Source: a virus. From it: DNA of 23,275 nt. The translations under genes and the position numbers were made by a program. The notes below the pieces were generated by a model that saw only the letters and a program-made list of their open reading frames with translations, was not told the origin of the DNA and searched no databases. The stretch is from positions 1 through 23,275 of the IMG/VR virus record IMGVR_UViG_3300034102_001550. One strand, 5' to 3'. Of this stretch, positions 2,208 to 22,325 are shown piece by piece (position 1 is the first letter of the stretch; each line of letters begins with the position of its first letter).

Positions 2208-2858
2208 TTAGACCTCAGCAAAGCCAGTTAAACTCTGCACACGTATAGTATAATCTATCTGCAGTAATCTATTCAAACTTTTTTGCACAGGGTGAAATAT
2301 CACATGTGTCAACAGCTTTCCGTCCGCTGTGTTTGGTCCTAGGCTTTTTAATCCCAGTTCATCAAACACAAACGAGCCGTTCATATCTACACTGTTATCA
2401 AAGGCTTCTTGATCCAACGGCTCGCCGTAGTCTAATAAACAGCTGATCAAAATATCACTGTAGGTAGCTCCGCTGATATGTCGTATCTGCATTTTATTTC
2501 GAATAGGATCTTGATTTTCAATAGCATTTTGATCCACTACTTTTTGATAGGTTTGATTGTATAATCCAGAATTCACGCCAACTGTGTTAGGTGTAAGGTA
2601 TGTGATAAGTCCTGTAGGATCTACTGTTGTTCCGCCTGTGCCGAAAATCATTTGATATACTGTACCGTACCCTTGATTACTAAGACTGTTAACCATGGCC
2701 ACGCTCATATTTTCATAGTGAATGGCATTGCGTTTGTCCACAAAAACTTCTTTGGTTTCGGGATCATGAATTTTAATATGCCCTTCGAAGTGAAATCCAC
2801 CGGTTTCGTTAGGGCGGGATTGAGAAGTAGTTGCTTGCTGATCTTGATTATTTGGCAT
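2208..2858 (-). CDS. Structural protein of unknown function between giant protein and fibre
   Basis: I do not recognise a named family. The 216-residue protein starts MPNNQDQQAT with a polar, probably disordered stretch. A compact domain follows: GHIKIHDPETKEVFVDKRNAIHYENMS near 27-55, then VYQMIFGTGGTTVDPTG, LYNQTY and a beta-rich C-terminal half ending in LLQIDYTIRVQSLTGFAEV. The element 'D..T.EV.VDK.NAIH.ENM' resembles virion structural proteins of other large phages as I recall them. The gene follows the giant wedge-like gene and precedes a fibre, so an adaptor or fibre-linking role is plausible, but this is only context. It shows no likeness to T4 gp8 as I know that sequence. The frame is open 20 codons further upstream into the giant gene. 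The start at 2858 was preferred because AAAGAGAT lies just before it, whereas the upstream ATGs at 2882 and 2879 have no ribosome binding site. Confidence 0.8.
   Translation of the reverse strand: MPNNQDQQATTSQSRPNETGGFHFEGHIKIHDPETKEVFVDKRNAIHYENMSVAMVNSLSNQGYGTVYQMIFGTGGTTVDPTGLITYLTPNTVGVNSGLYNQTYQKVVDQNAIENQDPIRNKMQIRHISGATYSDILISCLLDYGEPLDQEAFDNSVDMNGSFVFDELGLKSLGPNTADGKLLTHVIFHPVQKSLNRLLQIDYTIRVQSLTGFAEV
2212..2216 (-). promoter_or_regulatory. Strong ribosome binding site of the collar-domain fibre gene
   Basis: The minus strand reads GAGGT, six bases, then ATG. It sits inside the last codons of the 216-residue gene, whose TAA stop is two bases before the fibre ATG. It is the best Shine-Dalgarno match in the window, which fits a fibre needed in many copies. 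Confidence 0.7.
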
Positions 2859-2862
2859 TTTG

Positions 2863-2870
2863 ATCTCTTT
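2863..2870 (-). promoter_or_regulatory. Ribosome binding site that decides the start of the 216-residue gene
   Basis: The minus strand reads AAAGAGAT, with GAG six bases before the ATG at 2858. Two in-frame ATGs at 2882 and 2879 lack any comparable site, and a longer reading would overlap the giant gene. Confidence 0.55.
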
Positions 2871-2883
2871 TTGTTCCATCATG

Positions 2884-2891
2884 TATTTATT
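2884..2891 (-). promoter_or_regulatory. Candidate T4-late-like promoter element (weak)
   Basis: The minus strand reads AATAAATA, one mismatch from the T4 late promoter -10 element TATAAATA. It spans the stop codon of the giant gene. A transcript starting some six bases downstream would still contain the AAAGAGAT ribosome binding site of the 216-residue gene. Such 8-mers occur by chance in AT-rich DNA, so support is weak. Confidence 0.2.
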
Positions 2892-5800
2892 CAGGTATAG
2901 CTGTGGTCTTTTCCACAATGAATCTAGCTATAGCGGTGTCTGCATCTATTAGGCTAACACCGTCTGTAGCTGTGGTCTCGCCTCTGCTATGCCATGTTTT
3001 ACCCTGTCTTCTTAGCACAGTCACTCGTGTACCTGCTGGCAATGCAGCTGTTAGTCTTATTTGAGCAGTAGCACCGTCTACACTAAATTCTGCTTCTTGT
3101 GTCTCGTCTGCTGCCGGACTGGCAGCACCGTTGGCTTCTATGTACACAGCCTGCGGATCTTTTTTCAATCTTCGACCACCGGCAAACACTTCTATTTGAT
3201 CGCAAGGTCCGTAAGTAGACGGTACAGTATTTCTATACCATACACCACTTCTCGATGCTTTTTGAGGCACAAAATCCAACGGGCCTATTAGCAGTGTGCT
3301 ACCGTCGCTGGTAAAGTCAGTTCTCTGCTGGGTTTCATTATATGGTATAACTTCGCTGTATCCTACATCAACCACCGCTGTACCCTGAGCGTGTATTTGT
3401 GCTATAGATGTTCCCTGAGCTCCTCTACGCAGTTGACCTAATGTATTACCCAATTTGGTCATGTACTCAATACGTTCTCCATCTATAAACACAACACCTG
3501 GTATATTTCTGCTGGCAATAGGTTGAGACAATTCAGCAGCATTCGTAACTAATATGCTGGTATCGAAGTAGTTTAGTGCCTGAGCTAATTTGCATTCAGC
3601 TTTTGAGAATCTGTTGTAATGAAACACATTCAACATGTCTTTATGTATTTCATATGCCGATGGCAATTTGAAAATATTATTACTGAAATTAACAATTTTA
3701 ATTTTATCAGTTGGTAAAGAATTTGCTGTGAGGTAAACTACTGCTCTTGGCAAGCTCACGTAATAATCTTTGTCTTGACGTAGACGATGTCCGTTTTTGT
3801 ATACCCATACATAACTCATCGCAATCGGTGGGCGTGATAGTTGATATTGAAGACGTCCGCCACTGTTTTCATCTTGAATAATATTCATAGACGGATATTC
3901 ACCAAACCAAGTTACTATTATTGGCACATTGTCTGTTTCGTTGACACTGGTCATTGGATAGCTTGCAGAAATTGCAATAGTATTTCCGTCAATAGAATAT
4001 TCTGCTCTCAAATCATTAACAATCTTGATGTGATCTCCTATTGACAATTTCAAAGGATTCAACGTTAATATTTTATTAGGGCCGTCTAGAGTATAATCTA
4101 CAATAAATGTTCTAAGTTGGTCATTTACCAGAACTTTTAGGTTAGCAGGCAATATACTACCGCCAGGTTCAACTGGATCGGTACCAAGTTGAAAGACATT
4201 ATTAGAACCGTCATAAACAGCATATAAAGTGTCGGGCCCTTTTAATAAGTACCCATCAACTTCTACCAATGCAGCAGTCAGTGTCGATCCTCGACTCAAT
4301 TCACTAAATCCATCGATGTCAAAACTTCTAGTGCTACCTTCATAATAGAAAGTCTGCGTATTAACTTGCACTAACGATAATCCTGAACTATCTACATCGG
4401 CACTGGCTTCTAAACATACTATTTTTACTACATCTCCTGCTTGTGGAATTATTCCAAAATCTACCAAAGTTTTTCCTACAGCATCAATTACATTTGTACT
4501 GTTACGGTATCCTACATCTACTTGAGTTCCGTTCACACTTACAAATATATTGCTGGTATTGTCATAGTTGGCATTGGTTAAAAATAAACCAGTAACTCCA
4601 TCTGCAATATAGCTTTGATAATCTAAAATACCAACGCCGCCGATTCCTACACTGAGTATTTCCACTAACTTATCCACTAATGGTGCTGTGATAAAATTCA
4701 CAGTATTGGTTTGTAGATCAATCGTATAATCAGTGTCTAAGATTCTTGATGTGTTGTCGACGTATACAAAAACTGATTTGTTTTCTAATACAGTTTGTCC
4801 TATAGAAAACTGTGTGGTTGTTCCGTTAGCAATTTTCACATTAGAATGCAGTGATGCTGCCCCCGATACTGTGTTGTTATATACTTTAATTGACACACTT
4901 TCGATAACCTGGCCTGGAACATTTTCTTCAGGTGCTGGCACCACTGTAGGATCTATAAACTTGCCACCAGTAATAGCAATTTCTTCTGCAGTGAATCCAG
5001 TAGCGGTAACATAGGCTCCACTTATACTTGACAACGATCCGCCGGTGAGTCTAGTATCTAAAATATTATTATCATTGATAGAAACACTGCCATCGCTTTC
5101 TATAGGTCGGAAAATTAATGTATCTTCATTATTCACTAATAGATACTGACCAATTTGAATTCCATCAGTGATGCCATTGCCTACAAATGTTGGCATTTCT
5201 GCAGAAGGATTCACTCCTGTACTTGAATCTAAAATGCTACTGCCGTCTACCCCATACTGAATATAATTTTCATCATCTACCCGTACAGTGATGTTGGTGT
5301 CTTTGCGTTTGATATAAATGTTAATTTTCTGTCCGGCAGCTGGCACATACGGTAATCTCACTGTGAATATTTCCCAGAATAATTGCCATTCTTGTGAAAT
5401 AATCGGAATAATAACATTGCCTGCGGTGTCAACACTGTTTTTTAGTGCTTTGTATAATACGCCGTTAACTTCCACAATTTCATCTTTCAGATATATCGCT
5501 GTAGAGTCAACAAAAGATCGTATGCCGTCAACTATAAAATAATAATCTGCACTGGTCTCAACTGAGTCCCAGTTGTCAGTAAACCAAGGTAGAGCATCCC
5601 ATCCGCCAGTGACGTCAAATGTAGTACCCTGTATCTGTACTCCGCCAAAATCAATGCCAGTCATTAACTGATTGAGTTCTTTTCCAATCATACCTTCTTT
5701 AGGTGCGTATGATTGATTGATCCTGTTCACTGCATCAAACAGCGTGATGTTTTTACCATAGCTTACTGTGATTGTGTCATTTTTTGTAGGAGCCAAGTTG

Positions 5801-8800
5801 AATATCAACTTGCCACGCAATAAAGAATAACCATCAGTAGGTTGATAATACAAACTAATAGTGTATTCACTGGCCAACACCACTTGTGTTTTGTTGGTCG
5901 CAGCTGATGTACGTGATATAGTAATTTTACTCTTGTCGTTGGTCGGAGCATAATTTAACAAGAACACCGCAGAGCTTCCTGTGGCTGTAAATGACTGTGT
6001 TTGTGAAAATGTATTGTAAATTCCAGTTTTGGAAATTCTATCAAATTTTACCGAGACATCAAATGTTCTAACCTGTGCATCACCTATTATTGCCACAGCT
6101 TTAGCCTGCACAGCATTAGTAGGATTCCCTCCCACCAGTGTAACCGTCGGTGCTGCGGTATACCCAGAACCAGTAGTCAATACTTGTATACTGGAGACTT
6201 TACCATTAGAAATAAATGCTTTGGCTGTAGCGCCGGATCCGGTACCGTCAATTAGCACTTTAGGAGGAGTACTATATCCCGAACCCTGTTGATATACTTC
6301 TATAGCAGTCACTGAATATGAATTATTATCTGCCCACCATTTCCAAGGATACTGAGATATTTCTGCAGACGAAGAGTTTACAGGATTTGCACGACCGTCA
6401 AATACCGAATACACCGGCGGTAAATCAAAATCTGTTGCGGCAGACGAATATGTTTCTGGAGTATCGTAACGACTGATATATTCTCTAACTGTGGTTCTAA
6501 AAGGTTTAACTTCATTAATGTATTCTTGATAACTTTGTAAATTATCATTTTTGTAATTAACTTTCTGTTCAAACGCCCCAATATTATGTGTGGCATTTAA
6601 GAAACTGGTTTTGAATATCCAGTCAACATATTGCTGTTCGCTCAGTAGGTGTCGTATAGAAGCAAAAAATAATTTATTCCATTCTACAGCATAGTCACCA
6701 ATAAAAATATCTTGCTTGATTGCTGTGAAGATATTTCTCAACTCTTGATCATTCTCAATATCATACGTAGTAGTATCAAAGGCCTGTGTGTTATCAAACC
6801 CTACTCCAATAGTACCGGTGTCGTATAAGGAAGAACTAAGTTGTATTGTACCGTTTTGTCTACTAATTAACGAATATCTATCTAAGAATAGATCAGCAGT
6901 GTCTGATACTTTTTCAAACACTGCCCAGCCGCCGGCAGCATACTCTTTGACTTTTATGATTTCACCAATTAAAACTTGACTGTCAACAATTTCGTAAATG
7001 CTGACAAATTCTTTGATAATTTTAAGATCGGTGTCATATCCGTCTTTATTCCAATCTGTTTTATTCCAATATTTCGTAGTGTCGAACGCCTGTGATTTAC
7101 TGCGGAAATAAACTTTTCGTGTGTCGTCCCAAGAATACACACTCCAGAAATCGTTCAACGTTGCATCGGCATTTACTAATACAGAAAAATATCTAACCTG
7201 AATGTTTATACTGCTGTATTTTTTACCGCGATTAGTTACCACTGCTTGAATAACTCGGCCTTGTCCATCTATATGGCACACTGCTGTAGCATTCACACCG
7301 TCGCCTGATATAGTTACTGGAGGACCGAGATAGACACCTGGTAGCTCTTGACTGAACAGTTCTCTAGGCTTGTATCCGTATCCAGGATCCACAATATCTA
7401 TAGTGTCTAATTCTCCGTTGATCAAATTAGCTCTTAGAATTGCACGTTTGATGTTTGTTGTACCCACTGCTTGCAAATCAATGTCATTGTCTACTGCCAC
7501 ATCATAAAGATTTAACTTGCTGCTAGGCACAGCATCTACACTATTAAGATTAGTAAAATCTATAGTTTCTGCAAATGTTTCTTTTCGTAAAATATTGTTA
7601 ATATATTCTATAACAATTTTCAGTGCTAATATTCTGTCAACAAACATAGTCTGGCGAGGACGGTACTGTATACCATATTTTTGTTTTGCCGGCAATGCTG
7701 CATCTGGAATACGATTACCTGCAATGTCTGTTCCGAGAAGACTGTCAATCCATTTGTTTTCTAATGGTGCAGAAGGTAAACTGTCTGCTATTCCTTCTGT
7801 TAACAATTGGTATTCGTTGTGTACAGGAATTTGTGATTCTAAATTTTTTCTAATCTGCAGATTTATCAGTGCAGTGTCAGACTGCATTATTGATTTAAAA
7901 TTATAAGTTAAGAATTTATCTGCCTGCAAAAATGCCACAAACGCAAGACCAGTTCCGGCAGGGTTAGCAATTAGGTCGGCTACTTCGGCCGCTGATCTTG
8001 TGCGATCAGGCATATTTGCCGGGGTCACCGCTTTGCTACGCACCCAATAGTAATACAGTGTTTCTGAAACTTGCCCGGTAGTAGGGCTGAAGAAAAATTT
8101 CACACTGTAAACATCGTTGTTAGGATACAAGGGCTGGCCGCTGATCCCCTGCGCTAATCCTGCATTAGTGTCTGCCAGCGCAGCCCATTCATTAGGCAAC
8201 AATACTGTTTCTACCCACTCATACACATCGACGCTGGCGCCTAATACTGTTTGATTCCAATTTCCCGTTCTGTAAGCAGAGTCTTTTTGTTCTGCGTATT
8301 GAAACTTAGCTGTACCGATGTTCCACCATAGTTTTCCTACATTTTTTTCCAACCAGTTTATAGTAGTATCTACCACAACTTCTGCTGTGCCTATGGTATA
8401 GACTGCTGGATCGTATGGAGTTTTATATTTTATTTCTTGTTCGGCTATGTTTAATATTTTTCCTCTAGCGGCATCGATGTAATCTACATCTTGTATTTTT
8501 ACATTCTTAGCATTGTCATAGAGTTCGATTTTCTTTATTTTTCTAAGATCAACTAATGGTTGTTGACTTGCCAGCACTGTCCAGCTTGCTCCACTGGTAC
8601 TTGCTGTGAACAATCTCACTATCCCCTGATAGGTATTTGTTATATTGTTTTTATGGTAAGGAGATCCTACCAATAATTTTGTACCTACGCAGTCGATACT
8701 GTGACCGAATGATTCGTCTACTTGAAGATCGCTGTCAAGTTTTTCTGTTAAGAAATAGGTCTGATCTTTTTTATCAAATACGTACACACCGCCTGTGAAT

Positions 8801-11800
8801 CCTTGTTCTACATAGAACCGTGTTCTGCTGTTGTCAAATGTTGTGCCTTCTAATAGATCAAAATTTACAGGGAATGGAGTTCTGGCATTTCTTGCCCCTA
8901 TGGCTATCTTCGAACCGTCTGGGCTTACTGATACAGCAAATCCAAAATATTCGTTGGTGTAGATTTCATAACTCTGTAAACGCTGTTTAACACGGAATTC
9001 AGTCACTGGCTGATCTAATTCTAAAACATATACCGCACCTTGATCCTGATAGTTTACATCTGCCCTAGGACTGGCGACTGCCAGCATTGTGCCATTTGCA
9101 TCTATGTCCATGCTGAATCCAAATTGATCACCTGTACTGATTACTAATCCGGAATCGATGTCAGTGAACGATGCCAGTGTTGCTGCGTTGATCATTTGAG
9201 TAAATTCATAAGAATCATACGCAGTCTTCTTATAAACAAATATCTTACCGCTGGAAGTTGTGGTACTGTCGCCCACTTGTTGCCAATTTGCACTGTCAGA
9301 CGGATCTTCGTTATAGCTGCGATAAGTGCTGTCTGGTCCTAAAAGTCCGTCGCCTAATTGATAATATTGATATGCATCTCCCGGAGACCCTCGATGGCGT
9401 ACTACTTCACCTTCGACGTATTCTACATCGCCGCGCCACACTCCTCGATAATTTGCAAAATACTGACCATCACTGTCAGGCGCACCAATAACTAATATGC
9501 TACCGTCTTTGTTCATGGCCATCGAGAATCCGAACAGATCGCCTTGCTTAACTAATTCTGCTTTTTGTGCATTAGTTAAAAGACCTGTAGTTGTAAACTC
9601 CATTGTAGAACCGTCGTCTTCCACAGAAATATTAGTCGGCAAAGAGCAGTGCGTAGATATATTATTGACCTTTAACCAGTTCTGTGACTCTAGGGTTATT
9701 GTGCTGCCGTCCGAGGTCGACCCGTCAAGGCTCTGCCATAGATTGCCGCGCACTGTTTCTAAAATAGGATCTTGTGCCGCTTGCCATACTATATCGCCTT
9801 GTTTGTACGAATCAAATAAGTTGTATATTCCTTTGTACAAAGGATTTTCCATGTGTATCCACTCTGTACCTGTATATTTGATAAGGTACACTCGACCTGT
9901 GTTATTATACGATCCTATAGCAGATACTGCTAGATAATATTCGTTACCGTTAACGCCTATTGTAATTTCTGATCCAAACTTTTCGTTGTCTGTGGGTCTT
10001 GGCGAAACAAATGCAGTGACACTGACATATCTTCCACTGATAAATTCATAAACCGCTACCATACCTTGCTGATAATATCCAGTGTTACGTCCTGATGTTT
10101 CAGCAGGTATAACTGTGGTGTGTGCAATCCAGTCGTCAGAGTTAATAGCTATCTGAGTGCTGCCATCTCCTAACCCTGCAAAATTTCCGTTGGCATTCAA
10201 CGCTCTGTAAAGTCTGCCGCCATACAGTACAATATCACCTTGTTCATAGGCTAATTCAGTCTGCCATTCGCCCATGTATCTATTAATAACACCACTGGCG
10301 ATCGGTGCTCCCACTACAAGGAATTTACCGTCTGGGCTGACAGCCATCTTTTCGCCGAACGAGCCTATTGCGATGTCAAAGAATCCGATAGGAGGTGCAA
10401 TGATCTGTTTTAAGATTAACCCTGTAGGAGTTTCTACATAAACATTCACAAATCCCGAGCCCGGTATACTGCTGATTATGTGTTTATTAATATTGTCATA
10501 AATGACTTTAGACCCTGCAAGCAGCGGAGACGAGGTACCAAAATCTTCTATGGTTTTTGCAGTGTACAATTTATTTTTCTGCACTACTTCCCACAAATCA
10601 TCGCCATTGTTATCTACGAATACCGTTGACTTATTTTTCAATAATGCTGCTGGATGCTGATCAACCGCTGCGTAATCTGCAAATCTTGCTAGGGTTAACA
10701 ACTGAATATTAACCGTGGTGCTGGAATCTAACTCAGGATCATCAACGTCTGCGCTGACCACAACTGTTATTGTAGTGTTGGTTACTGCACTGACTTTAAA
10801 AAATCCGCTAAGGTTAACAATCTCACGGAATCCGATATACTCATCGACTGTCACTGAATGTGGTCTGTTCAATGTCAAGGTGACCGTAGTGTCATCTATA
10901 CGTACTGCTTCACTAACAAATAGCAGTGGCGACTCATTGACTCGCAGTACTTGCCAGCTGTCCTGATTGAAAGTTACCCAAATATGATCGTTTTCATCGA
11001 CTGTGGTTATATCAAGAGATGTTAACTGATCCAATGAACCGACCACATGTTGATATTGTCCTGAGCTAACATAACCGGCAGTGAATTCTGGTTCCAGATC
11101 CAACGTGGTTGGTAAAATATCTACAGTGTACGGGATCGGTGAAATTGTAAAATCATTAGCAGTAAATCTATAATACTGATCTAAGACGTTGGCTGTGTCA
11201 TTGGCTGTTACCAGATGGAGTTGTGGGTTTAGTTTAAATTTATTCTTTTCAAGTTGTATTTCAATTTCCGAGAATTGATCAGTGCCGCCAAGTTGACCAA
11301 GACGAAATGCCCATTCTTCATTAAGTACGACACTGTCGGACCCCGATCTACTTAGTTTATTAAAAATTTTAGTTACACTGTTTGCGGTACCTTTTTCTCT
11401 AATAAATCCCTGATATAGCTGAAACTGGCTTACCGGATCTTCCGCAAGATTTTGTAGATAGTCTCGTTGTTGATAACCTATGGCATGTCTAGCCAATTCT
11501 CGTTGACTTTGATCTAGTCCCTGAGACGAAGTTTCAAAATAGTCACTGAATTGTTTTATCTTATAATCAAAATTTGACACCAGCTGTTTGACTGGTTTTG
11601 AATCTAGTTTTGACCAGTTGGCATCGTTAAATATTTCTGCACCTAATTGATTTACAAGGCTGGTCCAGTTGTAAGATTTGTAAGAAACAATATCTCCCAG
11701 TTTGTAATCTCGGAACGGTTGCCAAATCTGTATATCAACATTATCGAATAAAAATCCTGGGCTGGTATAGTCCCCGTCCCAATCCACTGTGCGGAAGGCC

Positions 11801-14800
11801 TGCATTTTAATACGGCCTTGACGATATCCAGTAGGCTTGTCATAGATTATGTCATTGAACACTGTGCGATCATCAAATACAGTAACGTGTTCTTTTATTA
11901 CATAATGCAGTCTTGCATAATAAATGCCGTCAGTGGTATTTGTGGTTTCTATATCTAGGGATTGAAAACTTCTATTAATGTTAAGGAATCTTGGAGCCAG
12001 CGGAGTTCCGTCTCCCTTGAGAATCTGATAGTCATAAAAACCGTCAAGCAGATTGTCTGGTGTTCCTACAGGTATAGAAATTTTTAATTTTTGTGCAGAT
12101 GGGCTTAGGGCAATAATAGCACCTAGGTCCCAATTGTGCTTAGACCAAAACATGAATTCTTTAGCAGCACTGAGCCAATCCTGGCTGGTAGCATTTTGAG
12201 GATCGTAACTATCAAATACAATACCCTGTGTTTTAAGATAGCTTTCATATCCTAACAATAGATCTACCACTTCCTGTATACTGGTCAGGAGTGTTCCATA
12301 ACTGATTTGTTTTACAGTAATGGTGTTGAATATTCGTCTACGTTGCGCTTCGATTGCACCTATCTTAGGCACATTTCCTAATTTTTGCCATAGACTACGA
12401 TCAAAGTCTCCGCTGCTGCGGTGAGTTTTTAATGCTCGATAAAAATTACTCTGATATCTTATCAAAGTACCGTTGTTATAATTCTTATCTTCTATCCAAT
12501 CGGTAAATGCTTCACTGACTCCACCCACGGAGATTACGGGATCTTTACTGCTGGCCTGAGCCGGATGATAGTTAAAGTAAGGATGAATATCGTCATACCC
12601 TGCTACAATCCAGCCGCCTGATGTTTTTTCTAATCTCACACCACTGTAACTAACTGTAGATACTGGACTACTAATGTTAAACACAATATCGTAATTTTCT
12701 GGAGGGATAAAGATACTGGAAGTAGTTGCCGAAGGATTTTTCGAATCTAACAAATATTTTTGCTGTTGTTGATCCACAAACCCGCTCATTCTAAAACTCA
12801 AGGCCACATCTAATTTTTCTATTTTAACCTGCAGGCTATCCTTAGATAATCCTTGAGATGTAGTATAACTGGTTAGATATTTTACCAATCCAACTGCTGT
12901 AGAATCTGTCACGAAGGGTGCAATGTCTGCAATAGTCACAAACAACCCTGTGGTAGAATTTATGTACTGGTCTAATTTGTTTTTTATGATTCTTGATCTA
13001 TCAAAATTGTCAGGGATATATTCGAATGGTTTCATCAAACACATAGCGGTAACAATTGCATATGGCCATTCAGAACTAGATCTCCATGCGTACTCTGCTG
13101 GACTTACATCCCCTAATACAAACGGGCCGCGATTGTTGATTAATGAAAAATCCTGTGCAAGATTAGAATCCAGCGGACTCAGTAACTTTCCGTCACCGTC
13201 TACAGGGATGTGTGAAACAAGGCCGGGCCGCTTGTATCTGTCATATCTACCAGCTCGAACGCCTTGTCGAATTATTCCAGCTTCAAGGTCTTCCCATAAA
13301 ACTAAATTGTTACTGGTATACGGTGCTGACCCGTATTCTGCCTGCCACCAAGAAGGTCGCTGACTAAACCCTAACATCTCCCAAGGGCAGCGATGCGGTC
13401 TATCAGTGTCATAGAAATGCTGATACACTCCTCTCCACCAGCCAGGGATATTTTTAGTTTTAGTGGGGTCTGACATGTTGGAATACGTATAGGTAAATGA
13501 GTTTTCGCTGTCGAAATACTCATTTGTTGTATAATTGATATTGGTATTCTGAATCCATTTTAAAAAATCTTGTACCACAATCATATCTAACTGATTCTTA
13601 GAATATTCGCCTACTCCGTAATAACCAGCTAATATTTGATCTATATCAAATACTGCAGAATTATATTCTTGTTTGATATTATTGTAGATACGTAATTCTA
13701 GTTCCAACAATAGATCATCTCTAAAATCACCAAAAGATGCAGTGATACTGCCGTCGTGTCCTTGTATAACATACCTCGGTTCTTGGTATGTGTCATCAAG
13801 AAATTTCATAGGGGTATATTTTTTATACAGCCCCATAGACGTAGGTGTAGGTGGAATAAAATTAGTAGAAGTGCTGAGATATTCTCTAATTTCAATTGCA
13901 TCGCCTTCTGCTAACGGCGCTGTAATTGTTATGAAACTGAATGCAGAGTTAAACACGTAATCTTGAGTGTTTATAAGTTGTAACCCGTTTTTGTAAACAT
14001 ACACAGCTCGGCTGCTGAGAGTTGTCAAATCAAATCTTTCTGACAATGTAAATGTAGTAATACCAGTATCTTCTACTACTGTTGTCAAGGCAGTGTAGGC
14101 TCCTGCACCGATCATGTCTGAATCTGCAAAAGCGTCTTGCGGTGTTTTTACTGAGGTTAAGCTGTTGATTATGTCATCAACAAAATCAATTGTTTGATCA
14201 TTATAATCAATTTCTGTAGCTCTTTGCAGGAAATTGTTTTTGAAATCTGTATATTCTTTTTTTGCATGCTGGATTGCTTTGACGATATTGTGAGTTTTAT
14301 CACACAATGACATCACAGCCAGCGGTGTATTACCGCTGTGTTTTAAAAATCGTTTGGCAAACAGTCTATAATCTTCAAGATCTCGTAGGTTACTTACTCC
14401 GGGTAATTTTCCTGTAAATTCTTTGTCCCATTCTATTGCGCTGGCTATGTGATCAACCGCCTCACCTAAAGTAAACGATTTTATAGGTGCGTTAAACGGA
14501 TTTTTTTCTAAGCCAACAGGTATTTCATAGTAACCTTGATCTGGGTCAACATCTGTGATGAGTTTGATTACTACAACATCGTTAACTGCAAATGTTGTAC
14601 CAAATACAAACGTTCCTAATTTTCTTGTCCACGAACCTGTATATTTTGTGCCATTCAAGTAGAAATTTATTTCAGGATCGGTGGTCAAACTTTCCCATCG
14701 TATCGTAGTAAATGTTAGAGTATCAGTAGCTGTGCTTACCAGTTGGTTATCTATTATAGGTTGTAGATATTTAGAATTCAATTGCTGCCAACCATTGGCA

Positions 14801-16869
14801 TAGTTAGATCCTAATTTATAAAACCCGGTGGATATCTTTTTGTCTACTGGTAGATTATTAATCGTGTAACGAAATGTGTCAACATCCCAATCATAATCAA
14901 ACTCAATATCGCCTATGTTATCTATGTTGAGATAACTGATCTGAATTCCTAATTCTGTATCAATTCTTGCATTTCCTGGCTTATAACTTAATATGCTCGA
15001 ACCTATAAATTCCGAGTCTGGATAAGTTGTATGATCGCCAAAACTAATTTCGTTTCCGTCAAAGACATCAAACCGTGGTGCTTGGTTCACCTCAGTTTTA
15101 GGTTGGCTAGATACCCAATCAGTTCCGTTAAAATGGAACATCAGTCCTTTGTTTACGTTGCCTCGTCTTACTGTGACACACTGGCCAAGAATTGATTCTG
15201 TGTCATCACTTTCTCTAAGATGTATTTGTTTAGAATTATTATGGGTGATAAACTCTACTGTGTATATTTTATTATTGACTAGATTATCTTGGTCGGCTAC
15301 AACTAATATCCTTGCACCGTCGAATAGAAATTCACCGTCTATGTTATATCCTCTAGATCCCTCAACGATAGAAAAAATATCAGTGGTCGCTGTATCTATG
15401 TAATCCACACTTTGTTTAGCAATTACTCCATGATTAAACAGTTGCAGGCCGGCACGAAATTCTATGATCGGTCGTTTAGCTCTTGCTGTTTCGTTAGCTG
15501 GAAAATCTTGACCTCTTAACTGATATGCCTTTTCTAAAATAGATCTGTGGAACCAACGATTGTATCTGCTCCACGGATTATTATCTGCACTATCTCTTGC
15601 GATGGTTATATAATCTTTTGACGCGGCATATTCTGTGGCATCATCAAACGGCTGTGTATCAAATCCGTCATTGTCAAATAATACTTCAGGGACTGCTGAA
15701 CTAAGTATCGGTGCTGCTAGATCGCTGAATCTAGTCAATGTAATAGCTGTGCCTACTCCTTCTACTAACCATGTATCAGTCGCATACGCTTCAGGAGTAA
15801 CATTGCCTGTAAATTCTACAATCATTCCGTTACTGAATTCAACTCCGTTACCGCTGGTGTATGTAGTTTTTCCAATGATATCAATGCCTACATTGACAAA
15901 AGTGTTTTCTTCTATGTCTGCAATAATAAATCTGCCGAACGCATCTGGTGTAATTTTACCTTGGTAATACAAAGTGTCTGGTGCATCGTACGGTACATCA
16001 AAAGTCAATATGCCGTTTTCAATTCCGTTATTGATTACTCCTTTGTTGTAATCTAACGAATTACCTGCACTGGCTGGTTCGATGTATTGCCAATCTTCAC
16101 TGTCTATAGTGATTGAACTTGCATCTAGACTGGTAACATCTCGTATAGCCCGCCATAATTTTGAATCATATACTACCACACTGCCTTGTGGGTAACTTCT
16201 AGTGGGCTGAAATAATAAACTGCCTGTATCAAAATTAGTGCGAAGCACTAACCCTTCTCCCGGAGCATTTACACGAAATTTGTAAGTTTGTCCTCGATAT
16301 AGGGTCAGCGTGGGATTATTAGTATATGCATCAGGAGTGAATACAAACGAATTTTTAGTAGTTCCTAACACAACTTTATATGTGCTGTTGACTGTTGCAC
16401 TTTGACCCGCGATGCTAATACTGCGTGGGCCTAGCGGTTCCCAGTAGTATTCTCTATAGTTAATAAACTTGTCCCAGTCTATTGGGGGGTCCCAAGTGTA
16501 GTGGGTTTGTCCAGTAACTTTGTCATCACGTTCGATAGTGTTACCGAAAAATTTCAATTGATTTTTAACATCAACATAGTCATAGAAATTTTCTATCTTA
16601 TCATGATTTTTAAATATTACACCGGGCTCCAGTTGATAACTGCTGCGCAATGTAGCGTCAGTGTCAACATAAACATCTTTGCCGTTGAAAGTTTTATCGT
16701 ATCTGCGACCGATATATCCGACAACTTTGTCTAATACTCCGGGCTGAATTAACGGATCAACTACTGCAGATAAAAATTTATCATTAGCGGGAGTTTGAAA
16801 GATTACCGGAAGCAGTTCTACTGATCTACGGATAGGTAATTGACTGTTAGGAAAAAATTTATTGGCCAT
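2887..16869 (-). CDS. Giant (4660 aa) baseplate structural protein in the T4 gene 7 position
   Basis: This single uninterrupted frame encodes a protein of roughly 510 kDa. It probably belongs to the baseplate periphery, because it follows the gp6-like gene as gene 7 follows gene 6 in T4; T4 gp7 has 1032 residues. The N-terminus (FFPNSQLPIRRSVELLP, then QPGVLDKVVGYIGRRY) leads into a scaffold of about 1850 residues. This scaffold contains a segment LYRGQTYKFRVNAPGEG near 187 and a tryptophan-rich block near 1142-1180 (PGWWRGVYQHF...RPSWWQAEYG). A six-repeat FG-GAP-like propeller spans about 2160-2755. A more helical region (KYGIQYRPRQTMFVDRILAL) lies near 3040. Glycine-rich GSGYT-type repeats lie near 3160-3220 and 3527-3590, and fibre-like beta modules fill the last 640 residues. 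Seven CBM5/12-like modules lie near residues 223, 1460, 1718, 2205, 2350, 2480 and 3788. The ATG is one base after the gp6-like stop, with no ribosome binding site; the next in-frame Met is hundreds of codons away. The gp7 assignment rests on gene order only. Confidence 0.85.
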   Translation of the reverse strand: MANKFFPNSQLPIRRSVELLPVIFQTPANDKFLSAVVDPLIQPGVLDKVVGYIGRRYDKTFNGKDVYVDTDATLRSSYQLEPGVIFKNHDKIENFYDYVDVKNQLKFFGNTIERDDKVTGQTHYTWDPPIDWDKFINYREYYWEPLGPRSISIAGQSATVNSTYKVVLGTTKNSFVFTPDAYTNNPTLTLYRGQTYKFRVNAPGEGLVLRTNFDTGSLLFQPTRSYPQGSVVVYDSKLWRAIRDVTSLDASSITIDSEDWQYIEPASAGNSLDYNKGVINNGIENGILTFDVPYDAPDTLYYQGKITPDAFGRFIIADIEENTFVNVGIDIIGKTTYTSGNGVEFSNGMIVEFTGNVTPEAYATDTWLVEGVGTAITLTRFSDLAAPILSSAVPEVLFDNDGFDTQPFDDATEYAASKDYITIARDSADNNPWSRYNRWFHRSILEKAYQLRGQDFPANETARAKRPIIEFRAGLQLFNHGVIAKQSVDYIDTATTDIFSIVEGSRGYNIDGEFLFDGARILVVADQDNLVNNKIYTVEFITHNNSKQIHLRESDDTESILGQCVTVRRGNVNKGLMFHFNGTDWVSSQPKTEVNQAPRFDVFDGNEISFGDHTTYPDSEFIGSSILSYKPGNARIDTELGIQISYLNIDNIGDIEFDYDWDVDTFRYTINNLPVDKKISTGFYKLGSNYANGWQQLNSKYLQPIIDNQLVSTATDTLTFTTIRWESLTTDPEINFYLNGTKYTGSWTRKLGTFVFGTTFAVNDVVVIKLITDVDPDQGYYEIPVGLEKNPFNAPIKSFTLGEAVDHIASAIEWDKEFTGKLPGVSNLRDLEDYRLFAKRFLKHSGNTPLAVMSLCDKTHNIVKAIQHAKKEYTDFKNNFLQRATEIDYNDQTIDFVDDIINSLTSVKTPQDAFADSDMIGAGAYTALTTVVEDTGITTFTLSERFDLTTLSSRAVYVYKNGLQLINTQDYVFNSAFSFITITAPLAEGDAIEIREYLSTSTNFIPPTPTSMGLYKKYTPMKFLDDTYQEPRYVIQGHDGSITASFGDFRDDLLLELELRIYNNIKQEYNSAVFDIDQILAGYYGVGEYSKNQLDMIVVQDFLKWIQNTNINYTTNEYFDSENSFTYTYSNMSDPTKTKNIPGWWRGVYQHFYDTDRPHRCPWEMLGFSQRPSWWQAEYGSAPYTSNNLVLWEDLEAGIIRQGVRAGRYDRYKRPGLVSHIPVDGDGKLLSPLDSNLAQDFSLINNRGPFVLGDVSPAEYAWRSSSEWPYAIVTAMCLMKPFEYIPDNFDRSRIIKNKLDQYINSTTGLFVTIADIAPFVTDSTAVGLVKYLTSYTTSQGLSKDSLQVKIEKLDVALSFRMSGFVDQQQQKYLLDSKNPSATTSSIFIPPENYDIVFNISSPVSTVSYSGVRLEKTSGGWIVAGYDDIHPYFNYHPAQASSKDPVISVGGVSEAFTDWIEDKNYNNGTLIRYQSNFYRALKTHRSSGDFDRSLWQKLGNVPKIGAIEAQRRRIFNTITVKQISYGTLLTSIQEVVDLLLGYESYLKTQGIVFDSYDPQNATSQDWLSAAKEFMFWSKHNWDLGAIIALSPSAQKLKISIPVGTPDNLLDGFYDYQILKGDGTPLAPRFLNINRSFQSLDIETTNTTDGIYYARLHYVIKEHVTVFDDRTVFNDIIYDKPTGYRQGRIKMQAFRTVDWDGDYTSPGFLFDNVDIQIWQPFRDYKLGDIVSYKSYNWTSLVNQLGAEIFNDANWSKLDSKPVKQLVSNFDYKIKQFSDYFETSSQGLDQSQRELARHAIGYQQRDYLQNLAEDPVSQFQLYQGFIREKGTANSVTKIFNKLSRSGSDSVVLNEEWAFRLGQLGGTDQFSEIEIQLEKNKFKLNPQLHLVTANDTANVLDQYYRFTANDFTISPIPYTVDILPTTLDLEPEFTAGYVSSGQYQHVVGSLDQLTSLDITTVDENDHIWVTFNQDSWQVLRVNESPLLFVSEAVRIDDTTVTLTLNRPHSVTVDEYIGFREIVNLSGFFKVSAVTNTTITVVVSADVDDPELDSSTTVNIQLLTLARFADYAAVDQHPAALLKNKSTVFVDNNGDDLWEVVQKNKLYTAKTIEDFGTSSPLLAGSKVIYDNINKHIISSIPGSGFVNVYVETPTGLILKQIIAPPIGFFDIAIGSFGEKMAVSPDGKFLVVGAPIASGVINRYMGEWQTELAYEQGDIVLYGGRLYRALNANGNFAGLGDGSTQIAINSDDWIAHTTVIPAETSGRNTGYYQQGMVAVYEFISGRYVSVTAFVSPRPTDNEKFGSEITIGVNGNEYYLAVSAIGSYNNTGRVYLIKYTGTEWIHMENPLYKGIYNLFDSYKQGDIVWQAAQDPILETVRGNLWQSLDGSTSDGSTITLESQNWLKVNNISTHCSLPTNISVEDDGSTMEFTTTGLLTNAQKAELVKQGDLFGFSMAMNKDGSILVIGAPDSDGQYFANYRGVWRGDVEYVEGEVVRHRGSPGDAYQYYQLGDGLLGPDSTYRSYNEDPSDSANWQQVGDSTTTSSGKIFVYKKTAYDSYEFTQMINAATLASFTDIDSGLVISTGDQFGFSMDIDANGTMLAVASPRADVNYQDQGAVYVLELDQPVTEFRVKQRLQSYEIYTNEYFGFAVSVSPDGSKIAIGARNARTPFPVNFDLLEGTTFDNSRTRFYVEQGFTGGVYVFDKKDQTYFLTEKLDSDLQVDESFGHSIDCVGTKLLVGSPYHKNNITNTYQGIVRLFTASTSGASWTVLASQQPLVDLRKIKKIELYDNAKNVKIQDVDYIDAARGKILNIAEQEIKYKTPYDPAVYTIGTAEVVVDTTINWLEKNVGKLWWNIGTAKFQYAEQKDSAYRTGNWNQTVLGASVDVYEWVETVLLPNEWAALADTNAGLAQGISGQPLYPNNDVYSVKFFFSPTTGQVSETLYYYWVRSKAVTPANMPDRTRSAAEVADLIANPAGTGLAFVAFLQADKFLTYNFKSIMQSDTALINLQIRKNLESQIPVHNEYQLLTEGIADSLPSAPLENKWIDSLLGTDIAGNRIPDAALPAKQKYGIQYRPRQTMFVDRILALKIVIEYINNILRKETFAETIDFTNLNSVDAVPSSKLNLYDVAVDNDIDLQAVGTTNIKRAILRANLINGELDTIDIVDPGYGYKPRELFSQELPGVYLGPPVTISGDGVNATAVCHIDGQGRVIQAVVTNRGKKYSSINIQVRYFSVLVNADATLNDFWSVYSWDDTRKVYFRSKSQAFDTTKYWNKTDWNKDGYDTDLKIIKEFVSIYEIVDSQVLIGEIIKVKEYAAGGWAVFEKVSDTADLFLDRYSLISRQNGTIQLSSSLYDTGTIGVGFDNTQAFDTTTYDIENDQELRNIFTAIKQDIFIGDYAVEWNKLFFASIRHLLSEQQYVDWIFKTSFLNATHNIGAFEQKVNYKNDNLQSYQEYINEVKPFRTTVREYISRYDTPETYSSAATDFDLPPVYSVFDGRANPVNSSSAEISQYPWKWWADNNSYSVTAIEVYQQGSGYSTPPKVLIDGTGSGATAKAFISNGKVSSIQVLTTGSGYTAAPTVTLVGGNPTNAVQAKAVAIIGDAQVRTFDVSVKFDRISKTGIYNTFSQTQSFTATGSSAVFLLNYAPTNDKSKITISRTSAATNKTQVVLASEYTISLYYQPTDGYSLLRGKLIFNLAPTKNDTITVSYGKNITLFDAVNRINQSYAPKEGMIGKELNQLMTGIDFGGVQIQGTTFDVTGGWDALPWFTDNWDSVETSADYYFIVDGIRSFVDSTAIYLKDEIVEVNGVLYKALKNSVDTAGNVIIPIISQEWQLFWEIFTVRLPYVPAAGQKINIYIKRKDTNITVRVDDENYIQYGVDGSSILDSSTGVNPSAEMPTFVGNGITDGIQIGQYLLVNNEDTLIFRPIESDGSVSINDNNILDTRLTGGSLSSISGAYVTATGFTAEEIAITGGKFIDPTVVPAPEENVPGQVIESVSIKVYNNTVSGAASLHSNVKIANGTTTQFSIGQTVLENKSVFVYVDNTSRILDTDYTIDLQTNTVNFITAPLVDKLVEILSVGIGGVGILDYQSYIADGVTGLFLTNANYDNTSNIFVSVNGTQVDVGYRNSTNVIDAVGKTLVDFGIIPQAGDVVKIVCLEASADVDSSGLSLVQVNTQTFYYEGSTRSFDIDGFSELSRGSTLTAALVEVDGYLLKGPDTLYAVYDGSNNVFQLGTDPVEPGGSILPANLKVLVNDQLRTFIVDYTLDGPNKILTLNPLKLSIGDHIKIVNDLRAEYSIDGNTIAISASYPMTSVNETDNVPIIVTWFGEYPSMNIIQDENSGGRLQYQLSRPPIAMSYVWVYKNGHRLRQDKDYYVSLPRAVVYLTANSLPTDKIKIVNFSNNIFKLPSAYEIHKDMLNVFHYNRFSKAECKLAQALNYFDTSILVTNAAELSQPIASRNIPGVVFIDGERIEYMTKLGNTLGQLRRGAQGTSIAQIHAQGTAVVDVGYSEVIPYNETQQRTDFTSDGSTLLIGPLDFVPQKASRSGVWYRNTVPSTYGPCDQIEVFAGGRRLKKDPQAVYIEANGAASPAADETQEAEFSVDGATAQIRLTAALPAGTRVTVLRRQGKTWHSRGETTATDGVSLIDADTAIARFIVEKTTAIPE
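2995..4800 (-). repeat. Five diverged fibre-like beta modules at the C-terminus of the giant protein
   Basis: At protein level a pattern of about 45-60 residues recurs: hydrophobic strand, 'V..NG..L', 'DY', a short strand, 'L..GD.I.I'. Examples are VFVYVDNTSRILDTDYTI..., IFVSVNGTQVDVGYRN..., LKVLVNDQLRTFIVDYTL...SIGDHIKIV, VWVYKNGHRLRQDKDYYV...TDKIKIV, and IEVFAGGRRLKKDPQAVY...PAGTRVTVL. Between the fourth and fifth lies a different segment, GVVFIDGERIEYMTKLGNTL then GQLRRGAQGT. A related module occurs near residue 960 (VYVYKNGLQLINTQDYVF...EGDAIEIREY). Such modules are common in phage fibres and may form a stalk or attachment arm; that role is inferred. Confidence 0.55.
6095..7395 (-). repeat. 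Glycine-rich GSGY-type beta repeats in the giant protein (two sites)
   Basis: Two separate stretches share the pattern 'GsGY..pP.V...G.G..A.A.....G.V..I.V...GsgY'. One reads VDPGYGYKPRE...PPVTISGDGVNATAVC...GRVIQAVVTNRGKKYSS (bases about 7200-7395). The other reads QQGSGYSTPPKVLIDGTGSG...KVSSIQVLTTGSGYTAAPTV (bases about 6095-6290). This pattern is known from secreted and phage structural proteins. The repeats are diverged at DNA level. The coordinates span both copies and the ordinary coding sequence between them. Confidence 0.5.
8605..10390 (-). repeat. FG-GAP-like beta-propeller region inside the giant protein
   Basis: Six protein-level repeats start with FG and end in a 'G.V.V(F/Y)' strand: FGEKMAVSPDGKFLVVGAP...GMVAVYEF, FGSEITIGVNGNEYYLAVSA...GRVYLIKY, FGFSMAMNKDGSILVIGAP...GKIFVYKK, FGFSMDIDANGTMLAVASP...GAVYVLEL, FGFAVSVSPDGSKIAIGA...GGVYVFDK, FGHSIDCVGTKLLVGSP...GIVRLFTA. 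An earlier strand, GFVNVYVETPTG, could close the ring. FG-GAP repeats form seven-bladed propellers in integrin alpha chains and in bacterial surface and phage proteins. Three CBM5/12-like modules are embedded: in the loop of repeat 1 (about 10115-10256), between repeats 2 and 3 (about 9665-9823), and in repeat 3 (about 9271-9432). Blade number is uncertain (six or seven). Confidence 0.7.
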
Positions 16870-20289: not shown

Positions 20290-20727
20290 TTAGTTAATTA
20301 CACTATTGTTTTTGTCAAAGTTCATGGTCATACGTTCTGTAATATTAAACGGAATATACACTAAGTCTGCCTGTATACGCATGCCCTGGTCTGTGCTGTC
20401 TATGTTAATTTCAGTGACTGCAAATCTAGGATCGTAGTTTATGATAGCTTCTACATCCTTGGCTATAATTTCTTTTACATCGGGTGTAAATGGCTCAAAC
20501 AACATGTCCCAGATCACTGTGCCAAATTCTGGGTTTTCCAACTTTTCACCTTTGCGGATATAAAAATGATTGATCAAATCCTGCTTGACAAGGTTAATGT
20601 CGTAGAGTTTAAAATTCTTATTAGCTTCTTTAGAGCTAAATCCTTTGTAGGTGAATTGCCCTTGATTCTGAGTCACTGTAGCAGAACGCTGTGCTGCTGT
20701 TTGTTGATTGTATAGTCTTGTGGCCAT
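20290..20727 (-). CDS. Baseplate wedge protein / sheath initiator, T4 gp25-like (TssE family)
   Basis: gp25 joins the inner wedge to the first ring of the tail sheath. This 145-residue protein is close to T4 gp25 (132). After a polar N-terminal extension of about 35 residues, the family pattern appears: FKLYDINLVKQDLINHFYIR, then RKGEKLENPEFGTVIWDMLF at 58-77, then a helix, then DPR at 99-101, where gp25 and TssE proteins usually have EPR. A beta segment (VTEINIDSTDQGMRIQADLV) and YIPFNITERMTMNF end the protein. The gene starts two bases after the spike stop codon. Its AGGA site, ten bases upstream, lies within the last codons of the spike gene, which suggests coupled translation. Together with gp6 and the spike it forms the standard inner-baseplate cluster. 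Confidence 0.92.
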   Translation of the reverse strand: MATRLYNQQTAAQRSATVTQNQGQFTYKGFSSKEANKNFKLYDINLVKQDLINHFYIRKGEKLENPEFGTVIWDMLFEPFTPDVKEIIAKDVEAIINYDPRFAVTEINIDSTDQGMRIQADLVYIPFNITERMTMNFDKNNSVIN

Positions 20728-20729
20728 AA

Positions 20730-22325
20730 TTAAGTATTCCTATCCGTTTTATCCGGTGTCAATAAGTCCGGTGCTCTATGCTCATGCAATGCCCAAGGTT
20801 CATGCATAGGTATGCGCTTCATGAAGCTTTTCACAATGCCGGCTTGGTACCGCTTGTCCCAACCGGCTGCTGTGCTGGTAGCTGGATTGTCTCTGAGATC
20901 ATACGGCTTCACAAAATCAGCGGCCGCAGCAGTTTCTGCATTATTCGGACCATTGAAATTGATCTTAGTACCGTTGAGTTTAACTTCAGCACCACTGCCA
21001 AGATTTATGTCTGAAGTAGAGCTGATCTTAGTTTCTGCTCCGGACGCAATGTCTAAATCGTTGTTAGTAGATATCTTGGTCTTGGCTCCTACTAATATGT
21101 CAAGATTAGCACCCACTGTGAGTTTGGCATCTGCATTAACTAGAAACTCCATGTCAGTGGCTATTTCCACATGCCACTTACCCGATTCGGTTCTCATGTT
21201 GATATTTCTGCCTGCTTCTAAATTTATATCTCGAGCAGCACGTATGTTAAGATCCTGTTGAGTATGCACACTGATGCTGTCTTCAGCAAATATATCTATT
21301 TTGCCGTTACTGGTTAATTCAATCCATGCTGTGCCTCGAGCATTCGCTATGTAGATCAAGTCTTCTGAATTGTGCATCAGGATCTGGTGACCAGTTCTAG
21401 TACGAACTCTAAAATATTCACTGGCTGGAATCGTCGGAGATCCTGTGTCGCCTTTTCGTTGATTAGCAGGATCTAATAAATCGATATATTTTACCGGTCC
21501 TTCAGCAGCAGATTTTTCTCTGTGGAATCTATCATTGCCGTCATCCATAACCAACTGTGTGCCACCTAGTCTACTCACTGGCACAGTGGCTACACTGTCT
21601 GCCTTGCCTATCTGTTGTTTTTTTGCACTGGCTCTGCGATCAAGAGGACCGGGTGTACTGATACCAAATACCATGCTAGGAGCTTCTCGCCTTGGCGATG
21701 AAGTTGTGAATCCTCTAACATCATCCTCTAACAATCCTTGTTCAAGGAATCGATCTGCTATGGGGTGTACTACTCTAGGATATTTTTCTGGATCAATTTC
21801 TTGTGTTTCACCATTAATACGTTTGTTGACTTCTGCTACTGGCAGCGGCAAGGTGGTGTTTCCGTATCGTTTTTTATCTTCGGCATCTAGGCTGTTTACT
21901 GTACTGCCAGCTATAGCTGGTACCATGTGATTAATGTTAATACCCGGTACACAAGCAAACCAATAGCCTGCTGCAGGATCGCCGTTTACAAACAGCACCA
22001 ATACGTTGACGCCCACGTCTGGTGGTACAAACCACATACCGTATGATTTTTGTGTGTCGCTGAATCCGTCAATGGTCGATTTTGTTCCATCGTTATTTCC
22101 CATAAACTCAAATGGAGTGTAACCGAAAAACGGAGATGCGTATTTTACAATGAAAGTCTGACTGTCATCTCCCGCAGCGTTGGCTTGATCTTTTAGCAGA
22201 GTAACTTCAATTGATCCCATAAAAGATGGGTCAAGATGGCTGATAACTCTAGCGATATAAATGCCAGTGGTAAGCCCACCACTTCTGTCTGCGCCGTCGA
22301 CTGACGATCTGGATAATTCTGCCAT
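20730..22325 (-). CDS. Baseplate central spike, T4 gp5-like, without lysozyme domain
   Basis: This 531-residue protein would form the trimeric membrane-piercing needle under the tail tube. Residues about 20-140 are the gp5 OB-fold: IYIARVISHLDPSFMGSIEV, KYASPFFGYTPFEF, SYGMWFVPPDVGVNVLVLF, GDPAAGYWFACVP. A linker follows, then the entry to the beta-helix: GGTQLVMDDGNDRF near 255, RVRTRTGHQILMHNSEDLIY and ARGTAWIELTSNGKIDIFA near 310-345. The needle region to about 465 has short repeats such as DLNIRAARDINLEAGRNINM, DLDIASGAETKISSTSDINL and GSGAEVKLNGTKINF. T4 gp5 (575 aa) carries a lysozyme between OB-fold and helix; none is visible here. The C-terminus ends with IPMHEPWALHEHRAPDL, His-rich with HEH at 514-516. 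AGGA lies eight bases before the ATG, which overlaps the upstream TAA by one base (TAATG). Confidence 0.92.
   Translation of the reverse strand: MAELSRSSVDGADRSGGLTTGIYIARVISHLDPSFMGSIEVTLLKDQANAAGDDSQTFIVKYASPFFGYTPFEFMGNNDGTKSTIDGFSDTQKSYGMWFVPPDVGVNVLVLFVNGDPAAGYWFACVPGININHMVPAIAGSTVNSLDAEDKKRYGNTTLPLPVAEVNKRINGETQEIDPEKYPRVVHPIADRFLEQGLLEDDVRGFTTSSPRREAPSMVFGISTPGPLDRRASAKKQQIGKADSVATVPVSRLGGTQLVMDDGNDRFHREKSAAEGPVKYIDLLDPANQRKGDTGSPTIPASEYFRVRTRTGHQILMHNSEDLIYIANARGTAWIELTSNGKIDIFAEDSISVHTQQDLNIRAARDINLEAGRNINMRTESGKWHVEIATDMEFLVNADAKLTVGANLDILVGAKTKISTNNDLDIASGAETKISSTSDINLGSGAEVKLNGTKINFNGPNNAETAAAADFVKPYDLRDNPATSTAAGWDKRYQAGIVKSFMKRIPMHEPWALHEHRAPDLLTPDKTDRNT

Follow-up and report, generated by a model that had tools for sequence, protein, structure and literature searches.

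The locus described here raises the question of what a single 14-kb gene does directly 3′ of a gp6-like baseplate wedge gene, the position at which bacteriophage T4 carries the much shorter gene 7. The window, i.e. the whole stretch of DNA that was analyzed, is the entire IMG/VR record IMGVR_UViG_3300034102_001550 (23,275 bases), and all genes recognized in it are carried by the minus strand. In the order of transcription, they encode a 312-aa virion protein, a 531-aa gp5/VgrG-like protein, gp25, a 1129-aa gp6-like protein, the giant protein, a 221-aa protein, and a 705-aa collar fiber (Table 1). The giant open reading frame (ORF) starts with ATG, contains no internal stop codons, and accounts for 13,983 of the 23,275 bases (60%). 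An intact frame of this extent, 3′ of the gp6-like gene, had been reported in a preliminary description of the same DNA, and its coordinates were confirmed, with the strand being minus. The protein was also correctly described as far larger than T4 gp7 (4660 versus 1032 aa, i.e. ~4.5 times the size of its likely T4 counterpart); the calculated masses are 519.5 kDa (an earlier guess was 510 kDa) and 119.2 kDa, respectively. The gp6-like gene matches phrog_219, the T4 gp6 family, with an E-value of 3.4e-21 (T4 gp6 itself, used as a control, gives 9.7e-217).

Table 1. Genes of the window and segments of the giant protein (residue numbers refer to the giant protein)
Feature	Coordinates	Strand	Basis or remark
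312-aa virion protein	22325..23263	-	phrog_11190
gp5/VgrG-like spike protein, 531 aa	20730..22325	-	Domain and profile matches
gp25-like wedge protein	20290..20727	-	Domain and profile matches
gp6-like baseplate wedge protein, 1129 aa	16871..20260	-	phrog_10646, phrog_219
Giant protein, 4660 aa, 519.5 kDa, phrog_10938 family	2887..16869	-	ORF, mass calculation, profile match
N-terminal segment common to isolate giants, residues 1–170	16360..16869	-	Aligned 0.96–0.99 to residue 120, about half beyond
CBM5/12-like module, residues 220–270	16060..16212	-	Local model
Conserved core common to isolate giants, residues 1000–1960	10990..13872	-	Alignments; structure model
CBM5/12-like module, residues 1458–1504	12358..12498	-	Local model; chitin-binding fold match
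CBM5/12-like module (weak), residues 1716–1759	11593..11724	-	Pfam/local model
Proposed gp7/gpI-like block, residues 1800–1850, with the invariant Lys-Gly (1826–1827) of KG[TS]	11320..11472	-	Alignments, motif scan
Beta-propeller region with six FG-GAP blades, residues 2130–2755	8605..10482	-	Pfam; blade model
CBM5/12-like module inside propeller, residues 2202–2255	10105..10266	-	Pfam, local model
CBM5/12-like module (weak) inside propeller, residues 2353–2407	9649..9813	-	Local model
Second block common to isolate giants, residues 2755–3490	6400..8607	-	Without solved-structure match
Mobile GSGY-type module that accounts for the phrog_438 match, residues 3144–3230	7180..7440	-	Profile, hhalign
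C-terminal region with second GSGY module, residues 3491–4660	2890..6399	-	Conservation, local model
221-aa protein, no clear family	2208..2873	-	Directly 3′ of the giant in 48/48 testable relatives
Fiber protein with tail collar domain, 705 aa	88..2205	-	Domain and profile matches

Relatives of the giant protein

A search of IMG/VR with residues 780–1700 as the query matched 229 stretches, and the best 80 loci were kept. We collected 71 ORFs with lengths of ≥4000 aa, a number that includes the ORF of the window and counts some contigs twice. Among isolated phages, searches with the first 1500 residues and with residues 2755–3490 as queries each found relatives in 57 records. Nine isolated jumbo phages encode giants: Atu_ph07 (4449 aa), Phosso (4555 aa), Cassandra (3857 aa), SCTP-2 (3807 aa), Vibrio 2.275.O (3771 aa), Munch (3342 aa), PBECO4 (3333 aa), RaK2 (3326 aa), and CBB (CBB_236). 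All nine match phrog_10938, the profile of which also matches the window protein in four stretches across the core (E-value of 0, 1027.9 bits). This PHROGs entry is designated ‘virion structural protein’ in the category head and packaging, and its members include RaK2 ORF070, CBB_236, PBECO4 gp538, Munch 262, Atu_ph07 AUZ94962, and the giants of the PA5oct group; going by the table in the AP-J-162 paper, ORF58 of that phage is a giant of the same type (PMC11242549). The window giant is a propeller-bearing lineage variant of this existing, functionally unnamed family. Proteins of its lineage are mostly longer than the isolate giants (4216–5051 versus 3326–4555 aa), and all 22 of them contain an FG-GAP propeller, which none of eight isolate phrog_10938 giants has. 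In the records and papers examined, family members are elsewhere named structural, hypothetical, or chitin-binding-domain proteins, with no place in the baseplate assigned. A search of viral contigs with the Cassandra and SCTP-2 cores as queries found no relative, and neither did a search of genome contigs for the giant.

Gene order at the gene-7 position

The gp6 gene is located directly upstream of the giant gene in all 68 IMG/VR relatives that could be tested, gp25 is upstream in 68/68, and a gp5-like gene is upstream in each of the 58 relatives with enough sequence. In eight of the nine isolates, phrog_10646 and phrog_219 (the gp6 families) are matched by the gene preceding the giant, and in all eight a gp25 match lies before or near this gp6-like gene. 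The order gp5–gp25–gp6–giant is a feature of the lineage and of most isolates. The exception is SCTP-2, in which a 3096-aa protein of beta-propeller repeats (phrog_8401) is encoded just before the giant and gp6 is located ~92 kb away.

The gp25–gp6–giant order of the window corresponds to gp25–gp6–gp7 in T4. The reference orders are 6-7-8 in T4, W-J-I in P2, and 46-47-48 in Mu, and gp6/gp7, gpJ/gpI, Mup47/48, and TssF/TssG are described as counterparts, each wedge of T4 and T6SS containing two chains of the gp6 type and one of the gp7 type (PMC6300606). T4 gp7 is present in six copies (PMC3004832). No gp7 homologue was detected with the T4 gp7 profile (phrog_964), either in the nine isolate jumbo records (eight complete, the Vibrio record partial; the T4 control was positive) or in seven contigs. 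A match to gp53 was present in 14 of 14 records, although in the 12 jumbo ones it was weak (E-values of 8.8e-6 to 2.8e-3 over ~25–70 residues). The gp8 family (phrog_977) was found in T4 and S-CAM22; elsewhere there was one weak hit, to a 128-aa ORF of Atu_ph07, and none in the seven contigs. A T4-gp10-type C-terminal domain (E-value of 2.2e-17) is encoded by the third gene annotated after the giant in Cassandra; the match comprises the final 170 profile positions of T4 gp10, a domain common to tail-fiber families. Leaving SCTP-2 aside, the assignment of the giant to the gene-7 slot is well supported.

The slot could nevertheless be occupied by an unrelated protein. In this reading, the giant would be a peripheral baseplate arm that is encoded next to gp6, and the gp7 function would reside in an unrecognized small protein (e.g. 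the 221-aa product) or in the enlarged 1129-aa gp6-like protein. We consider this unlikely, while granting it a real chance. The gp7 equivalents of simple contractile phages are shorter than 200 aa (176 aa for P2 I and 180 aa for Mu 48), the 221-aa gene is located directly behind the giant in all 48 testable relatives, and the SCTP-2 giant is not beside gp6. However, P2, Mu, T4, Yut3, and S-CAM22 all have the gp7/gpI-type gene directly after gp6, exactly where the giant stands.

Comparison with gp7 and gpI

The sequence of the giant bears on the same alternative from both sides. Its core contains a block with the consensus G[YF]..[RK].YL......Q..FY.G.I..KG[TS], which is common to the giants, with not every position present in each; the lysine and glycine are invariant in alignments of both nine and 50 giants, and the translation of the 221-aa gene contains no KG. 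The candidate counterparts of this block are FYSTKGIEASYKFLF in T4 gp7, FYLSRGTETSFKFLF in Yut3, FYSTKGTSFSIAYLF in S-CAM22, and IHCHKGTIGAIRRVV in P2 gpI. Among 2084 family-averaged positions scanned, the KG site ranked first with Yut3, S-CAM22, and P2 gpI used singly and sixth with T4-like gp7 proteins, bearing in mind that the site had been spotted by eye beforehand and that the seeds, which have the motif in common, are non-independent. Compared with 60 column-shuffled matrices, Yut3 alone exceeded all of them (z of 6.7 versus a maximum of 6.20). The values for S-CAM22 (5.8) and for the pooled sets (5.7–5.8) are set against shuffled maxima of 5.84 and 6.49–6.73, respectively, whereas P2 equaled the shuffled mean (4.5) and the T4-like set was below it (3.3 versus 4.35). 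By themselves, the KG motif scores are not significant.

Profile comparisons gave no significant match between the 4660-aa giant and T4 gp7 (1032 aa), P2 gpI (176 aa), or Mu gp48 (180 aa), a result in line with an unrelated arm. In the reverse search with the KG block of the giants, P2 gpI ranked third of 634 (E-value of 5.5) and Yut3 ranked 200th, and S-CAM22 and T4 gp7 were not matched at their own motifs. Comparison of the motif region with gp7/gpI by hhalign was non-significant (P of 0.055–0.7), phrog_964 (the T4 gp7 family) did not match the window protein at E ≤ 1, and Tail_P2_I (PF09684) was absent from seven contigs and from nine core segments at E ≤ 10. The helix that precedes the motif in gp7 was not found in the giants by the same shuffled-matrix test, and a gp8 N-terminal motif noticed by eye failed it as well. 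The family phrog_26741 is matched by T4 gp7 and by one of the nine giants (E-value of 6.9e-4); as a bridge to gp7 it was rejected, the match to the Atu_ph07 and Phosso core (E-value of 0.026) being located in a GSGY stretch and not in the KG block. The AlphaFold model of residues 1000–1960 (m9366f7584c95) has a mean pLDDT of 52.9, with values of 25–43 over the KG motif, and no gp7 chain was recognized among the listed fold matches, a result that at such low model confidence does not speak against a gp7 fold.

The proposal of the preliminary description that the giant is equivalent to gene 7 stood as regards the slot, in IMG/VR relatives and in eight of nine isolates, and is unproven as regards homology, given the phrog_964 and hhalign results and the low-confidence model. 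Because the sequence bridge is thin and the motif region is poorly modeled, we do not file the giant as a member of the gp7 family. It contains a KG[TS] block that may correspond to that of T4 gp7 and P2 gpI and is the sole candidate for the gp7 role that was found in the records searched, and it most likely works in the place of gp7. Common descent with gp7 would be a stronger claim, in which our confidence is lower than in a shared function. A literature search covering titles, abstract openings, and some passages yielded no publication that names the giant as a gp7 equivalent.

Domain organization and structure models

The suggestion that the protein contains a propeller and glycan-module-like repeats was borne out by Pfam matches above the cut-offs for FG-GAP_2 (PF14312; 49.1 bits, cut-off 23) and CBM_5_12 (PF02839; 59.5 bits, cut-off 26.2). 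The six blades begin at residues 2169, 2296, 2444, 2581, 2640, and 2719. A blade model detected four to six blades in all 22 lineage members, in none of eight isolate giants, and in none of 150 shuffled sequences; since it was built from the six blades of the window protein, the hits to that protein are circular, and the Pfam match provides the independent evidence. FG-GAP_2 itself was found by Pfam in all 10 other lineage members that were scanned and in none of nine isolates at E ≤ 0.1. CBM-like modules are more widely distributed, being detected by a local model in 22/22 lineage members, 3/8 isolates, and 1/150 shuffled sequences, and by Pfam at E ≤ 0.1 in five of nine isolates. In the window protein, the local model recognizes five such modules (two of them weak), and two more were seen by eye near residues 2484 and 3793. 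Those near 2202 and 2484 each follow the ‘GAP’ end of a blade and precede its next strand; judged from this placement in the sequence, they may project from a single face of the propeller. Domains of CBM family 5/12 and of the FG-GAP_2 type are here embedded in a baseplate protein, where they may bind ligands.

In the model of residues 1000–1960, the chitin-binding module was the sole fold match that stood out. This module (residues 1458–1504) is well modeled and superimposes on 3wx7 with a Z of 7.4 (rmsd of 1.2 over 45 residues) and on the chitinase A1 domain with a Z of 5.2 (rmsd of 1.5 over 40). Its best fold match is 8fqc_P1, from the phage Milano baseplate with receptor-binding complex (Z of 7.5, rmsd of 1.4 over 45); all of these Z values are for a segment of ~45 residues. 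T4 capsid proteins also match the fold (Z of 5.0–5.5), so the fold alone does not imply sugar binding. The second block common to isolate giants, residues 2755–3490, was modeled with a mean pLDDT of 73.1 and had no PDB match at E ≤ 0.001 (best Z of 3.5). In BFVD it had 24 matches at this threshold, and those at the top were the Atu_ph07 giant and uncultured-phage proteins labeled YHYH. At the C-terminus, for which the fiber-like beta modules of the preliminary description are only tentative, the N-terminal domain of the T7 tail fiber was matched in five of 10 relatives at E ≤ 0.1 (best E-value of 1.9e-4).

A fused gp8 was first suggested by a match to phrog_438, because T4 gp8 also matches this family. 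The idea was rejected, as the match is partial (profile positions 188–262 in the window protein and 182–316 in the giants of 7/7 contigs). phrog_438 also matches other long ORFs in several of the seven contigs, and hhalign traced the match to a short GSGY repeat that is common to cyanophage gp8, ‘gp7’, and giant proteins. GSGY modules are located at 7180–7440 and 6070–6303 of the window and also occur in other long ORFs of contigs G001–G005 and in many virion proteins; they draw misleading family names, such as ‘wedge’ for phrog_438 and ‘head closure’ for phrog_460.

Sequence divergence, host contact, and downstream fibers

In four close relatives, identity is 0.82–0.91 in the propeller, 0.84–0.92 in the core, 0.73–0.88 in residues 421–999, and 0.71–0.89 in the C-terminus. 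Across 21 relatives from IMG/VR, mean identity is 0.757 in residues 1–170, 0.725 in the core, 0.662 in the C module, 0.641 in the propeller (lowest value of 0.414), 0.634 in the C-terminus, and 0.593 in residues 1961–2130. The propeller has diverged more than the core, yet change is not concentrated there. The C-terminal ~1200 residues are 68–76% identical in their best aligned segment, compared with 82–91% for the collar fiber of the same loci, and this faster divergence fits an exposed part of the protein.

All 35 testable loci, several of which are near-identical, have a relative of the collar fiber downstream. Stretches within the first 342 residues of the collar fiber recur at 29–45% identity downstream, pointing to a set of putative fibers with a common attachment end. 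The recurring stretches belong to the gene at 88–2205 of the window and, downstream of it, to further proteins in loci L086–L128. Like the 221-aa gene of the window, genes encoding ~200 aa are found close to the giant in several isolates.

The preliminary description had proposed that contact with the host surface is built into the wedge, in which case the propeller and carbohydrate modules would bind the bacterial surface directly. The six FG-GAP blades, the several modules with a chitin-binding fold, and the Milano baseplate/receptor-binding chain as the best match of one of them are in line with this idea, as are the lower identity of the propeller than of the core over 21 relatives and the greater divergence of the C-terminal region than of the adjacent fiber gene. 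However, the blades are confined to the lineage (22/22, versus 0/8 isolate giants), the propeller is more conserved than the C-terminus and residues 421–999 in the four close relatives and close to the C-terminus over the 21, the module fold is shared with T4 capsid proteins, and collar fibers with repeated N-termini are encoded just downstream. Because the propeller is lineage-limited and diverges about as fast as its neighbors, built-in host contact is unproven, and we regard it as improbable. The simplest picture is that the giant is an arm that would hold the fibers, possibly with contacts of its own.

Integrity of the gene and presence of related giants in virions

Both ends of the gene are spanned in 45 of the best 80 IMG/VR loci, and in 44 of these the frame contains no internal stop; L026 is the single spanning locus with a broken frame. 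The idea that related giants are virion proteins was corroborated by mass spectrometry. CBB_236, which adjoins the wedge gene CBB_237 and the gp25 gene CBB_238 in the CBB gene table, is listed among the structural proteins (21 peptides, 7.72% coverage), and the T4-like wedge proteins in a passage of the CBB table are gp6, gp25, and gp53 (PMC5259590). In phAPEC6, 17 unique peptides were assigned to gp245 (381.88 kDa), which is tabled after wedge protein gp244 (PMC7247149); judging from its size and place, gp245 is probably a relative of the giant. A table for AP-J-162 has a 4455-aa ‘Structural protein’ after a 1198-aa ‘Baseplate wedge protein’ (PMC11242549). The structural-protein section of the RaK2 paper (PMC3622015) does not name ORF070, and passages of the Atu_ph07 paper, which reports 131 virion proteins, do not name the giant (PMC6102473).

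The gene is neither a chance frame nor a misassembly, because 44 of 45 spanning loci are intact and nine isolated jumbo phages have relatives; with relatives of 3326–5051 aa in independent isolates and contigs, and with the CBB_236 and phAPEC6 gp245 peptides each assigned to one product, a wrong joining of several genes by assembly or annotation has a negligible chance and is refuted for the gene, while a product cleaved in virions is possible.

A probable wedge or arm protein in the place of gp7

Taking these results together, we favor, with moderate confidence, the interpretation that the giant is a baseplate wedge or arm protein of jumbo phages that occupies the slot of T4 gene 7 (P2 I, Mu 48) and does the job of gp7. 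By analogy with T4, about six copies would be present per particle, each gripping a pair of gp6-like chains and extending outward to the periphery of the baseplate. A gp7-like core around KG[TS] would most likely have been enlarged by insertions and additions, namely a large N-terminal part, carbohydrate-module-like domains, the lineage-specific six-bladed propeller, and a long C-terminal tail. Such a protein would connect the fibers encoded downstream with the inner ring of gp6, and a contact signal could be passed inward along it. A more far-reaching version, which we advance only tentatively, is that one chain replaced most of the peripheral wedge proteins of T4 (gp7, gp8, and perhaps also the connectors), so that each arm would be a single 0.5-MDa chain and the carbohydrate-fold modules in the propeller loops would form a contact sensor wired to the contraction trigger. 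The separate propeller protein beside the SCTP-2 giant would fit with fusion of a propeller partner in the window lineage; in this Salicola phage, it is encoded at L131:4612-13902, beside the giant, where the window lineage has an internal propeller.

The interpretation of the giant as a protein in the place of gp7 provides a candidate role for the oversized protein of the jumbo-phage groups represented by RaK2, Atu_ph07, and PA5oct. It also suggests that contractile tails can accommodate proteins of extreme length at the gp7 position, a cyanophage giant being another example. Provided that the arm consists of one chain, the path from fiber contact to the sheath could be traced along a single molecule.

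Proteins in the gp7 position of other phages

In cyanophage S-CAM22, a 6273-aa giant (AOV61339) is encoded directly after gp25 and gp6. It shares the KGT block and GSGY modules with the window giant. It differs in that it is matched by the T4 gp7 profile and not by phrog_10938 and that a separate gp8 is kept. The T4 gp7 match is at the KG motif (profile positions 731–758, E-value of 1.2e-6), and phrog_26741 connects T4 gp7 with the S-CAM22 giant at the KG block of the latter. The best family of this giant is phrog_701, which is filed under head and packaging. The annotation ‘baseplate wedge initiator gp7’ is carried by a 1375-aa gene (L143:1543-5670), and the giant is at L136:15976-34797; the gp7 label may sit on the wrong gene. 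A ‘gp7’ described in PMC10966104 was set aside as a comparison, being a neck protein. In Rhizobium phage LG08, an 881-aa protein in the gp7 slot (L137:11398-14043) contains a stretch that by eye looks like a propeller, and propellers may have entered the gp7 position more than once.
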